In this document: one piece after another, positions 1,054-49,774 of the stretch
How positions within the stretch are numbered: position 1 is the first letter of the stretch
How the letters are laid out: each line of letters begins with the position of its first letter
NCBI RefSeq assembly: GCF_003856835.1
Contig: NZ_CP034145.1
Location: 744,001 to 808,000 of the forward strand
Direction: 5' to 3'
Source: Haloplanus aerogenes
GTDB taxonomy: Archaea; Halobacteriota; Halobacteria; Halobacteriales; Haloferacaceae
Length of the DNA stretch: 64,000 nt
The notes under the pieces: generated by a model
The model's database searches: none
Told to the model about the DNA's origin: nothing
What the model saw: only the letters and a program-made list of their open reading frames with translations
Translations under genes and position numbers: made by a program

Positions 1054-2229
1054 ATGCAGGGATTCGTCCAAGACGCCATCGAGCGCGAGGAGGCCGAACA
1101 GCGGGACGCCGACGAGGACGACTCGTTCGGCGACCCGCGCATCGTCATCGTCGGTGCGGGTGGCGCCGGCAACAACACCGTCAACCGCCTGTACAACATC
1201 GGCGTCGACGGTGCGGAGACGGTCGCCATCAACACCGACAAACAGCACCTGAAGATGATTGAGGCCGACACGAAGATCCTCGTCGGCAAATCGCTGACTC
1301 AGGGGCTCGGTGCCGGTGGCGACCCCTCGATGGGTGAGCGTGCGACCGAGATGGCCCAGGGGACGATCAAGGAAGTCCTCGGCGAGGCCGACCTCGTCTT
1401 CGTGACGGCCGGGATGGGCGGCGGTACCGGTACCGGCGCCGCGCCCGTCGTCTCCAAGATCGCCAAAGAGCAGGGCGCCATCGTCGTCGGCATGGTGTCG
1501 ACGCCGTTCAACGTCGAGCGTGCTCGCACGGTGAAAGCCGAAGAGGGGCTGGAAAAGCTCCGCGGCGAAGCCGATTCGATCATCGTCCTCGACAACAACC
1601 GCTTGCTGGACTACGTGCCCAACCTGCCCATCGGCAAGGCGTTCTCCGTGATGGACCAGATCATCGCCGAGACCGTCAAGGGCATCTCCGAGACTATCAC
1701 GCAGCCGTCCCTGATCAACCTGGACTACGCGGACATGTCCACGATCATGAATCAGGGCGGCGTCGCGGTGATGCTCGTCGGCGAGACGCAGGACAAGAAC
1801 AAGACACAAGAGGTGGTGAGCGACGCGATGAACCACCCCCTCTTGGACGTGGACTACCGCGGTGCGTCCGGTGGACTCGTCCACATCACCGGCGGTCCCG
1901 ACCTCACGCTGAAAGAGGCCGAAGGCATCGCCAACAACATCACCGAACGACTGGAGGCGAGCGCCAACGTCATCTGGGGCGCGCGCATCCAGGAGGAGTA
2001 CAAGGGCAAGGTGCGGGTCATGGCCATCATGACCGGCGTCCAGAGCGCCCAGGTCCTCGGCCCGTCGACGCAGCGACAGGCCGAGAAGTCCCGGCGCAGC
2101 CTCAACGGCGAGGATGTTTCGGAATTCGATGCGAGCGACAATGTCGGTCAGGATCAGCGATCCTGGTCCGACGGCGGTCGTGACCGCAATCAGGTCGAAC
2201 AGCGCAACGGCATCGACGTGATCAAGTAG
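1054..2229 (+). CDS. ftsZ2: Cell division protein FtsZ2
   Basis: FtsZ2 is the tubulin-family GTPase that works with FtsZ1 in the archaeal division ring and drives constriction. The protein is about 391 residues. The GTP-binding tubulin signature GGGTGTG is at residues 122-128, the N-terminal Rossmann start reads [12 protein letters not shown], and the synergy loop NLDYADM is near residue 222. The C-terminal tail is acidic/polar and ends in GIDVIK. A GTG at 1048 overlaps the cdrS stop (GTGTGA); the ATG at 1054 is preferred but both are possible. The tight coupling shows a cdrS-ftsZ2 operon. Confidence 0.97.
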
Positions 2230-48433: not shown

Positions 48434-48544
48434 GCCACCGGATCACGTCCGGTGGCACGAGGAACGTCGTTCCTCGCTGAGCCGCGACGCACGTGCCGTC
48501 CGTCGCGGGCGTCGTCCCCCTGTACACCGCGAGTGCGGTGTACA
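48434..48544 (+). repeat. Cluster of three perfect hairpins
   Basis: Three stem-loops occur in the GC-rich gap after the enolase gene: GCCACCGGA-TCACG-TCCGGTGGC (48434-48456), CGAGGAAC-GTC-GTTCCTCG (48458-48476) and TGTACACCGC-GAGT-GCGGTGTACA (48521-48544). All stems are perfect with loops of 3-5 nt. The first two are separated by one base, the same spacing idea as the tandem pair inserted in the gene at 16672. The first could end transcription; the whole looks like a palindromic repeat element. Otherwise 48332-48580 holds no gene. Confidence 0.65.
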
Positions 48545-48581
48545 TATCAAATCAGCCGCCGACGGTAATTGAGTATTTGTA

Positions 48582-48605
48582 CGTTACTTACGTTACAACC
48601 GTTAC
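48582..48605 (+). promoter_or_regulatory. Triple CGTTAC array upstream of a CARF-like regulator
   Basis: CGTTAC occurs at 48582-48587, 48591-48596 and 48600-48605, exactly every 9 bp, ending 25 nt before the start of the following regulator gene. A/T-rich bases (GAGTATTTGT) precede it. Iterated short sites at this position are typical of operators bound by several copies of a dimer. The regulator itself is the most obvious ligand. Confidence 0.55.
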
Positions 48606-48630
48606 GTAATTCCGCTCGCCGCGCGATAGG

Positions 48631-49407
48631 GTGGGTGTGAACGTCGCCGAACGCGTCCACGTGATGCCGCTGGGGTTCGAACACGACCGGATCGTCGAGC
48701 CCGCGCGGGAGTACCGGGCCGACCGGGTGATCCTGCTGGACTGGCTCGCCGACGACATCGAGCGGCCGGCGTACCACGACGACGTGCTAGCAGATCTCGA
48801 CGCGGCCGGAATCGACGCCGAGCGGCGCGACTGCGATCTGTTCGACCTGTACGACTCTATCGCGGTTATCGCCGAAATCGTGACCGACGAAGCGACGCCC
48901 GACGACGCGGACGACGTGGCAAACGACGTGTACGTGAACCTCGCCACGGGGAGCAAGATCACCGCCATCGGCGGGATGATCGCCTGTATGGTCACGGGTG
49001 CGGCGACGCCCTACTACGTCCGCGCCGAGCGCTACGCCTCGGGGACGGAGCCAGTCGGGTACGGGATGGAACTCGCCATCGACCTCCCGACGTATCCGAT
49101 GGATCGCCCCGACTACCAGCAGATCGCCGTCCTCGACCGACTGGCCGACGAGGGGCCGTGTTCGAAGAAAGAACTGATCCGGTTCGGCGCCGAGTGGGAG
49201 CTTCCGTTCGTCGACGACTGCGACCGGCCGTTCGACGCCGCGGGCAAGCCGACCAAGCAGTCCTACGCCCGGCTCCGCCGGCACGTCGTCGAACCGCTCG
49301 AAGAGCGCGGCTTCGTCACGGTCGAATCGGTCGGCACGACGCGGCAGGTCCGGGCAACCGAGGCCGGTCGGAACGCTCGCACTGCGTTCGGGTACGTGCT
49401 CGATTAG
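48631..49407 (+). CDS. HFX_2341-type regulator: CARF-like sensor plus winged helix
   Basis: The 258-residue protein starts with a Rossmann-like sensor domain ('HVMPLGFEHDRIVEPAREY', 'RVILLDWLAD' and 'VYVNLATGSKITAIGGMI'). The latter resembles the nucleotide-binding G-T-G/S-x-K loop of CARF domains in Csa3-type regulators. A winged-helix domain follows (residues 165-255, 'CSKKELIRFGAEWELPF', 'PTKQSYARLRRHVVEPLEER'). In haloarchaea this family is known without adjacent CRISPR genes, as here; no CRISPR array or cas gene is in the window. The start GTG 48631 is preferred, with GTG 48637 possible. Confidence 0.75.
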   Translation: MGVNVAERVHVMPLGFEHDRIVEPAREYRADRVILLDWLADDIERPAYHDDVLADLDAAGIDAERRDCDLFDLYDSIAVIAEIVTDEATPDDADDVANDVYVNLATGSKITAIGGMIACMVTGAATPYYVRAERYASGTEPVGYGMELAIDLPTYPMDRPDYQQIAVLDRLADEGPCSKKELIRFGAEWELPFVDDCDRPFDAAGKPTKQSYARLRRHVVEPLEERGFVTVESVGTTRQVRATEAGRNARTAFGYVLD

Positions 49408-49426: not shown

Positions 49427-49774
49427 TTAGAGCCGGTCGAGCAACTGTTCGAGCCGTTCGTCGTCGTCGAACGCCTTGAGCAGCGTCGTCCGGTCGAGCG
49501 CCGGTTCGTACTCCGGTCGACCCTTGCCAACGGGGGAGTCGCTTCCGTCGGTCGCCATCCGGACGAGACCCTCGGCCTCGAGTTCGTTGAGCGCACGCGT
49601 GGTTGCCGCTTCGGAGACCGAGCCAATCACGTCGGCGTCGACATCGTCGACTCGCCGGGAACAGGCGCGAGCAATCTCGCCAGCGTGGGCCGGTGTCTCC
49701 CCGTCGGTCGCCAGTTGGGTCACACTGATCAACGTGAGCCGCTGCGTGAGCGTCGTCGACTCGAGGTCAGCCAT
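49427..49774 (-). CDS. Small winged-helix protein
   Basis: The 115-residue protein is a single winged-helix domain: 'LTLISVTQLATDGETPAHAG', then 'AATTRALNELEAEGLVRMA' as recognition helix and a Gly/Ser-Pro-Gly wing ('DSPVGKGRPEYEP'). It is similar in style to the C-terminal domain of archaeal Orc1/Cdc6 proteins, but has no ATPase domain, so it is not an initiator by itself. It is convergent with the CARF-like regulator, with the stop codons 20 nt apart. Confidence 0.68.
   Translation of the reverse strand: MADLESTTLTQRLTLISVTQLATDGETPAHAGEIARACSRRVDDVDADVIGSVSEAATTRALNELEAEGLVRMATDGSDSPVGKGRPEYEPALDRTTLLKAFDDDERLEQLLDRL

Follow-up and report, generated by a model that had tools for sequence, protein, structure and literature searches.

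A phased CGTTAC array as a candidate operator of a haloarchaeal CARF-winged-helix gene outside CRISPR

Most of what is known about CARF proteins concerns their role in receiving CRISPR signals. What, then, governs a CARF-type regulator in a genome without a Cas1 or Cas10 match, and does the repeated DNA in front of its gene take part? The window analysed here, a 64,000-nucleotide stretch (C1:744001-808000) of the 3.5-Mb genome of Haloplanus aerogenes, carries such a gene behind three exact copies of CGTTAC. The copies lie on the forward strand at 48582-48587, 48591-48596 and 48600-48605, in steps of exactly 9 bp, and the coordinates given for this triplet in a preliminary description of the locus were borne out on the window sequence. 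That description also put a gap of 26 nt between array and gene. The figure holds if translation starts at the GTG at 48631; six same-genus orthologs have an ATG at the position of the GTG at 48637, which makes the latter the better start and 31 nt the better gap. From the sequence evidence set out below, we consider it probable that the array (48582-48605) is the operator by which the CARF-winged-helix protein controls its own gene, bound head-to-tail and most likely as a repressor.

With the better start, the gene occupies 48637-49407 on the forward strand, stop codon included, and encodes a protein of about 256 residues. Its N-terminal CARF-type domain (48652-49035, forward strand) matches PF19810, HFX_2341_N, with an E-value of 3.3e-39, and its C-terminal winged helix (49081-49389, forward strand) matches PF22665, DUF6293_C, with 3.7e-27; both exceed the curated Pfam cut-offs (134.5 against 30 bits and 95.2 against 27 bits). 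A sequence search of the PDB with this protein returned no meaningful relative. An AlphaFold2 model based on 18 aligned family proteins (mean pLDDT 86.8, pTM 0.81) gave Sso1393 and the ring nuclease Sis0811 as top Foldseek matches (E about 1e-6). By VIA-align, the model superposed on Can2 7bdv with Z 15.5 (2.2 Å, 121 residues), on Csm6 8jh1 with Z 15.1 and on Sis0811 7pq3, over both domains, with Z 14.5 (rmsd 4.6 over 179 residues). Csa3 2wte followed with Z 11.8 and an rmsd of 14.3 over 196 residues, a large value that perhaps reflects differently turned domains, and the C-terminal part matched 4yif with Z 10.7 over 78 residues. The protein as modelled has the CARF Rossmann-like fold, and the earlier reading of a CARF-like sensor joined to a winged helix is upheld by the Pfam domains together with the model's matches to CARF structures.

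The candidate ligand pocket was compared with known motifs in the 18-protein alignment, with motif positions placed by eye. CARF motif 2, given as G-x-R/K in the part of PMC8844856 consulted, falls at G104-S105-K106, and the lysine is a threonine in both Halohasta rows. The site of the Csa3 cA4 motif 1 (hydrophobic-G-F-N/D-x-hydrophilic-F, same source) reads L-G-F-E-H-D-R, with arginine where Csa3 has phenylalanine; here G, E and R are invariant, with F/Y in 18/18 rows. The ring-nuclease GxS/T motif was compared at a single site, G12-x-E14, where the glutamate is invariant and S/T is absent throughout the 18 rows. To the eye, the pocket motifs of the window protein thus appear similar but not identical to their Csa3 counterparts. 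That both Halohasta proteins, whose genes also have the array, carry threonine in motif 2 warns against assuming one shared ligand.

How unusual is the array? The three-unit pattern, searched at up to three mismatches, has one match in the window, with 0 mismatches, against a shuffle mean of 0.06; the exact two-unit pattern has two matches against 0.02 expected. A repetitive stretch at C1:2029917 in the same genome also holds three exact CGTTAC units, so conservation, not exact match, has to decide on the array. Exact three-unit copies arising in such stretches lend something to the idea that the repeats are a functionless product of tandem duplication or codon spacing, as does a mild lag-9 excess in neighbouring promoters (0.61, described below). 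We regard this explanation as very improbable in light of the comparison among orthologs.

Orthologs of the gene are present in 7 of the 12 same-genus genomes, at 82-100% identity, and conservation of the array before orthologs had been set beforehand as the first half of a test of the earlier reading. An array of three or four units stands in front of all seven: exact in four, with one changed base in G062 and two in G074, and with four units in G090, one of them carrying one change. The array also precedes both Halohasta orthologs (2/2; 56-58% identity), carrying 1 change in one and 2 in the other. When six orthologs are aligned on the array, the cores agree at a mean pairwise identity of 0.94 and the spacers at 0.69. 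The preceding 60 bp average 0.49, of which the 20 nearest the array reach 0.59, and the 33 bp that follow average 0.44. Across 28 units from nine species, unit positions 1-6 are nearly fixed (25-28 of 28), with positions 7-9 variable. Cores that stay conserved while spacers and flanks diverge, in an array lying between genes, argue against neutral repetition.

The array also goes with the CARF gene, since the upstream gene is not constant while the array stays. Four genomes, among them that of the window, have a near-complete enolase match ahead of the CARF gene; the fetched upstream stretches of G090 and G101 have no enolase match and that of G046 only pieces. The G046 enolase consists of two separated segments (L198 5544-6035), as if decayed. 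In the five same-genus genomes without an ortholog, among them G116, with 79% completeness, and G106, with a 45% relative, the array at up to two mismatches is absent except for one match in G024, a two-mismatch match inside a 404-aa open frame.

The sign of regulation depends on where the promoter elements lie. The distance from array to start codon is 30-33 bp across orthologs. In the wider family (n=92), A+T content is highest, at 0.85, at position -26 relative to the start codon, which fits the TATA box of a leaderless transcript, as in haloarchaeal leaderless promoters. On this profile, GTAATT at 48606-48611 (forward strand) is the candidate TATA box, and the last array unit, 48600-48605, would accordingly fall on the BRE. 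Occupancy of this unit, on or beside BRE/TATA, would most likely block TFB/TBP and repress the gene, giving negative autoregulation. This sign rests on a TATA position deduced from composition, with the AT-rich box TTGAGTATTTG (48569-48579, forward strand) before the array, similar in all seven orthologs, as a possible alternative TATA box. A reading of the array as an RNA leader was dropped: the A+T profile sets the TATA box between array and start codon, though the AT-rich box before the array leaves room for it. An Rfam search gave nothing above the gathering score (one match, E 0.63).

The same layout could serve the opposite end. A protein bound upstream of BRE/TATA might recruit TFB or TBP and make the array an activating site with positive feedback, a reading we hold possible but doubtful. 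An array end 30-33 bp before the start codon, adjoining the inferred TATA box, would suit activation, and in the part of PMC7465815 consulted the CARF-winged-helix protein MM_0565 has been described as activating many genes. Weighing against it are the overlap of the last unit with the inferred BRE position and the mostly repressing action of the studied paralog, HFX_2341 (PMC11434293, in part).

Further upstream, 38 bp before the array, is a dyad, GTACACCG-N6-CGGTGTAC (48522-48543, no strand assigned). In a search of the 12 same-genus genomes with N2 to N8 allowed, the exact dyad occurs once each in five of the seven ortholog-bearing genomes, always exactly 38 bp from the array, and the window copy is the sole exact one in its genome; G111 also has one exact copy, inside an open frame. 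In G101 the 38-bp position is taken by a variant dyad, GTGTCCCG..CGGCACAC, with both arms changed and one mismatch between them; in G074 no dyad was seen before the array. Apart from the AT-rich box adjoining the array, the sequence of the 38-bp linker has diverged. The fixed spacing suggests a composite operator.

This dyad bears on who binds the array. A different regulator, perhaps also using the dyad 38 bp away, could bind the array and control the CARF gene while the CARF protein acts elsewhere; we judge this unlikely. In its favour, a unique dyad at fixed distance means that at least one more site may be in the promoter, and with genes called by a crude acidic-residue filter no neighbour gene is common beyond close clades, which allows for a binder encoded elsewhere. 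The two genera with CGTTAC arrays also differ from each other in the presumed recognition-helix stretch. Against it, a foreign regulator would be expected to have further targets, and a 9-bp phase that recurs in several CARF clades as the word changes fits co-evolution with the CARF protein. Both points were examined by searching for other sites and by comparing promoters across the family.

Across nine genomes, exact two-unit sites number 18, comprising 12 at the genes' own promoters and 6 elsewhere. Five of the seven ortholog genomes have them at the CARF-gene promoter only, and G062 has none that is exact. The window genome has four further exact sites. One is in a 70-aa open frame, two overlap in a repetitive stretch taken as coding, and the fourth lies in a CARF paralog's divergent promoter. 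This fourth site (L062 1338-1352; G000:C1:1538237-1538251) has two exact units between the divergent paralog and a gene that is, by eye, metallo-beta-lactamase-fold-like; a search at 1e-20 for the paralog itself (C1:1537332-1538195) found nothing in the remaining 11 genomes of the genus. In G046, the promoter of a second DUF6293 relative (47% identical) contains a two-unit site with one mismatch (L066; G046:C1:2882543-2882557). These sites in the promoters of DUF6293 paralogs (G000:C1:1538237, G046:C1:2882543) may reflect cross-talk.

With one mismatch allowed, the two-unit pattern has 73 matches in the seven ortholog genomes, 14 at own promoters and 59 others, against 19 for a reversed-pattern control. 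All 59 were inspected (52 + 7). A crude open-frame filter placed 37 of the 52 inside likely genes; the remaining 15 comprise five copies of one site, eight non-recurring sites and two recurring ones (L245, L248). The five-copy site lies in the 70-aa frame in G000 and in a like frame in G074, the frame being presumably a ribosomal-protein-like sequence, and a third recurring group (L237, L246, L258) lies in an open frame by the same filter. With two-unit patterns, exact and at one mismatch, no second conserved intergenic array was found in these genomes, the recurring L245/L248 pair aside. Self-regulation is the best reading on this ground, and the same result counts against a foreign regulator.

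Does the 9-bp step extend beyond the genus? From 110 upstream regions of family members (30 + 80), 92 non-redundant ones were kept; L029 and L030 were dropped as partial matches and the others mainly because their promoter sequence was already represented by a retained region. Coding sequence extends into some of the 92 (L024, for instance, and perhaps L086/L090); individual rows lose weight by this, whereas the result for the genus does not. Between -125 and -15, the excess of self-matches over local shuffles is 1.73 at lag 9, 1.16 at lag 18 and 0.80 at lag 27, against a largest value of 0.42 at any other lag from 4 to 30. The CARF promoters show no rise at lags 6, 12 and 15, which rules out codon periodicity as the source of the 9-bp signal and is a further point against codon spacing without function.

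Taken singly, 15 of the 92 promoters reach p<0.01 and 33 reach p<0.05 at lag 9, the other 59 having p of 0.05 or more; at nine other lags, none a multiple of 9, p<0.01 is reached by 0-4 of 92 (lag 9 tested with 500 shuffles, the others with 100). When the proteins were clustered at 60% identity, the median p was below 0.05 at lag 9 in 7 of 22 clusters and at lags 7, 8, 10, 11, 13 and 14 in 0-1 of 22 (Fisher 9.4e-7; seven lags, 300 simple shuffles each). The other 15 clusters, including the largest (23 members, e.g. L101 Natrialba and L108 Natrinema), are without the lag-9 signal. Compared with 277 promoters of neighbouring genes, which show mild codon periodicity and the lag-9 excess of 0.61, the CARF promoters stand out at lag 9 (z=4.7) and lag 18 (z=3.5), with z=1.3 at lag 27. 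Lag 9 is also higher than in sequence 290-400 bp upstream of the same genes (8.91 vs 7.88); lag 27 is not. Promoters of true HFX_2341 orthologs have no lag-9 excess (0.24 in the 22 of 30 that were usable, eight having failed the start test). Given the mixed clusters and this result, the 9-bp step is a feature of some DUF6293 promoters rather than of the family as a whole.

The repeated word changes where the step is kept. Read by eye, it is CGTTAC in the window genus, in Halohasta and loosely in L025, CGTCAC or CGACA in Halorubrum and Halobellus, and TGTCG in Halosimplex and Halomicrobium. In the promoters of two distant members, L026 and L146, inverted TACTATCG / CGATAGTA-like words, again seen by eye, replace direct repeats.

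The geometry has a counterpart in bacteria. BldC of Streptomyces, in its solved arrangement, binds 9-bp direct repeats of varying number, head-to-tail, with one winged helix per repeat, according to the part of PMC5859096 consulted; the 9-bp direct repeats of the array would match this operator geometry if they are the operator of the CARF protein. BldC differs in being a bacterial, MerR-like protein of another family, with 68 residues and no sensor domain (same source), whereas the window protein has a CARF-type domain. A precedent for the position comes from MM_0565 of Methanosarcina mazei, which binds its own promoter across BRE and TATA with a KD of 285 nM and requires all three 20-nt parts of a 60-nt fragment; it differs in being encoded beside a type I-B CRISPR locus, and the portion of PMC7465815 that describes this reports no distinct binding motif. 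It is from BldC on 9-bp direct repeats and MM_0565 on its own BRE/TATA that we propose head-to-tail binding and autorepression. Each 9-bp CGTTACNNN unit would take one winged helix, all in the same orientation, so that three or four protomers would sit head-to-tail on the array DNA.

Csa3a and Csa3b of Sulfolobales likewise join CARF and winged-helix domains, and the model matches 2wte; they differ in being CRISPR-linked and cA4-binding and, by the parts of PMC8844856 and PMC7480081 consulted, are described as expected on palindromes rather than direct repeats, which speaks against head-to-tail autoregulation. The NCBI model TIGR01884 (Csa3) matches the window protein weakly, at 18.3 bits against a cut-off of 60.2, so it is not a Csa3 by that cut-off. 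Csa3 is encoded with CRISPR-Cas, whereas the window genome has no match to the Cas1 or Cas10-palm model.

HFX_2341 (Crr) of Haloferax mediterranei, a DUF6293-family protein, is, like the window protein, haloarchaeal, encoded away from a CRISPR locus and built from a CARF-type N-terminal domain and a winged helix. The window protein is its paralog, scoring 16.8 bits against the 500-bit cut-off of the equivalog model NF051475; the genome encodes its true HFX_2341 ortholog elsewhere, at C1:2976434 (588 bits). In the part of PMC11434293 consulted, HFX_2341 is a global, mostly repressing regulator whose over-expression lowers cas transcripts, with homologs in 643 of the 861 haloarchaeal genomes counted, some of them CRISPR-free; no proven ligand or DNA site is named there, and ChIP-Seq is called for. 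Repression of cas genes sets HFX_2341 apart from the window protein, whose genome has no Cas1 or Cas10 match. In the open literature, with most subscription journals outside coverage, a single paper mentions HFX_2341, DUF6293 or PF19810, and we found no operator described for this family. Precedents exist for operators made of direct repeats and for CARF regulators, each on its own; what appears to be new is an operator of a CARF-winged-helix protein that is phased at 9 bp and kept while its word changes.

The claim that no CRISPR system lies near the gene was upheld genome-wide, as far as models of Cas1 and the Cas10 palm reach. The Cas1 model has no match in the window genome and was found in two of the 12 same-genus genomes, and the Cas10-palm model matched none of the 12; among 14 known genomes used as controls, Cas1 was positive in nine and the Cas10 palm in five. 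Since the genome has neither match, a CARF ligand, if there is one, would come from outside CRISPR, and it would tune binding from the CARF pocket. A DAC domain (c-di-AMP cyclase) is present in all 12 same-genus genomes. For the HFX_2341 host, the part of PMC11434293 consulted gives no type III cyclase homolog and proposes c-di-AMP or cAMP as possible ligands.

A broader reading can be offered only tentatively. A CRISPR-uncoupled group of haloarchaeal CARF-winged-helix proteins might assemble head-to-tail on 9-bp repeats in their own promoters, the word drifting while the step is set by protein-protein contact, and a non-CRISPR ligand, with c-di-AMP the obvious candidate, might switch assembly. 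If true, this would be a CARF-gated, BldC-like filament operator. On the preferred, narrower reading of self-regulation, the locus already offers a precise candidate operator with a built-in spacing rule, a ready 60-bp probe for binding, spacing and ligand effects.

Two observations concern the surroundings of the gene. Convergent with it, on the minus strand at 49427-49774 of the window, is a small winged-helix-like gene, which is matched in five of the six same-genus relatives examined and not in G101. Of the two Halohasta genomes, G059 (H. litorea) has only one array at up to three mismatches, and G043 (Halohasta salina) has a second CGTTAC array, with one change and in the opposite orientation, just before the 3' end of the CARF gene (L067 2026-2049), where it sits upstream of a 105-aa open frame (1668-1985, minus strand).
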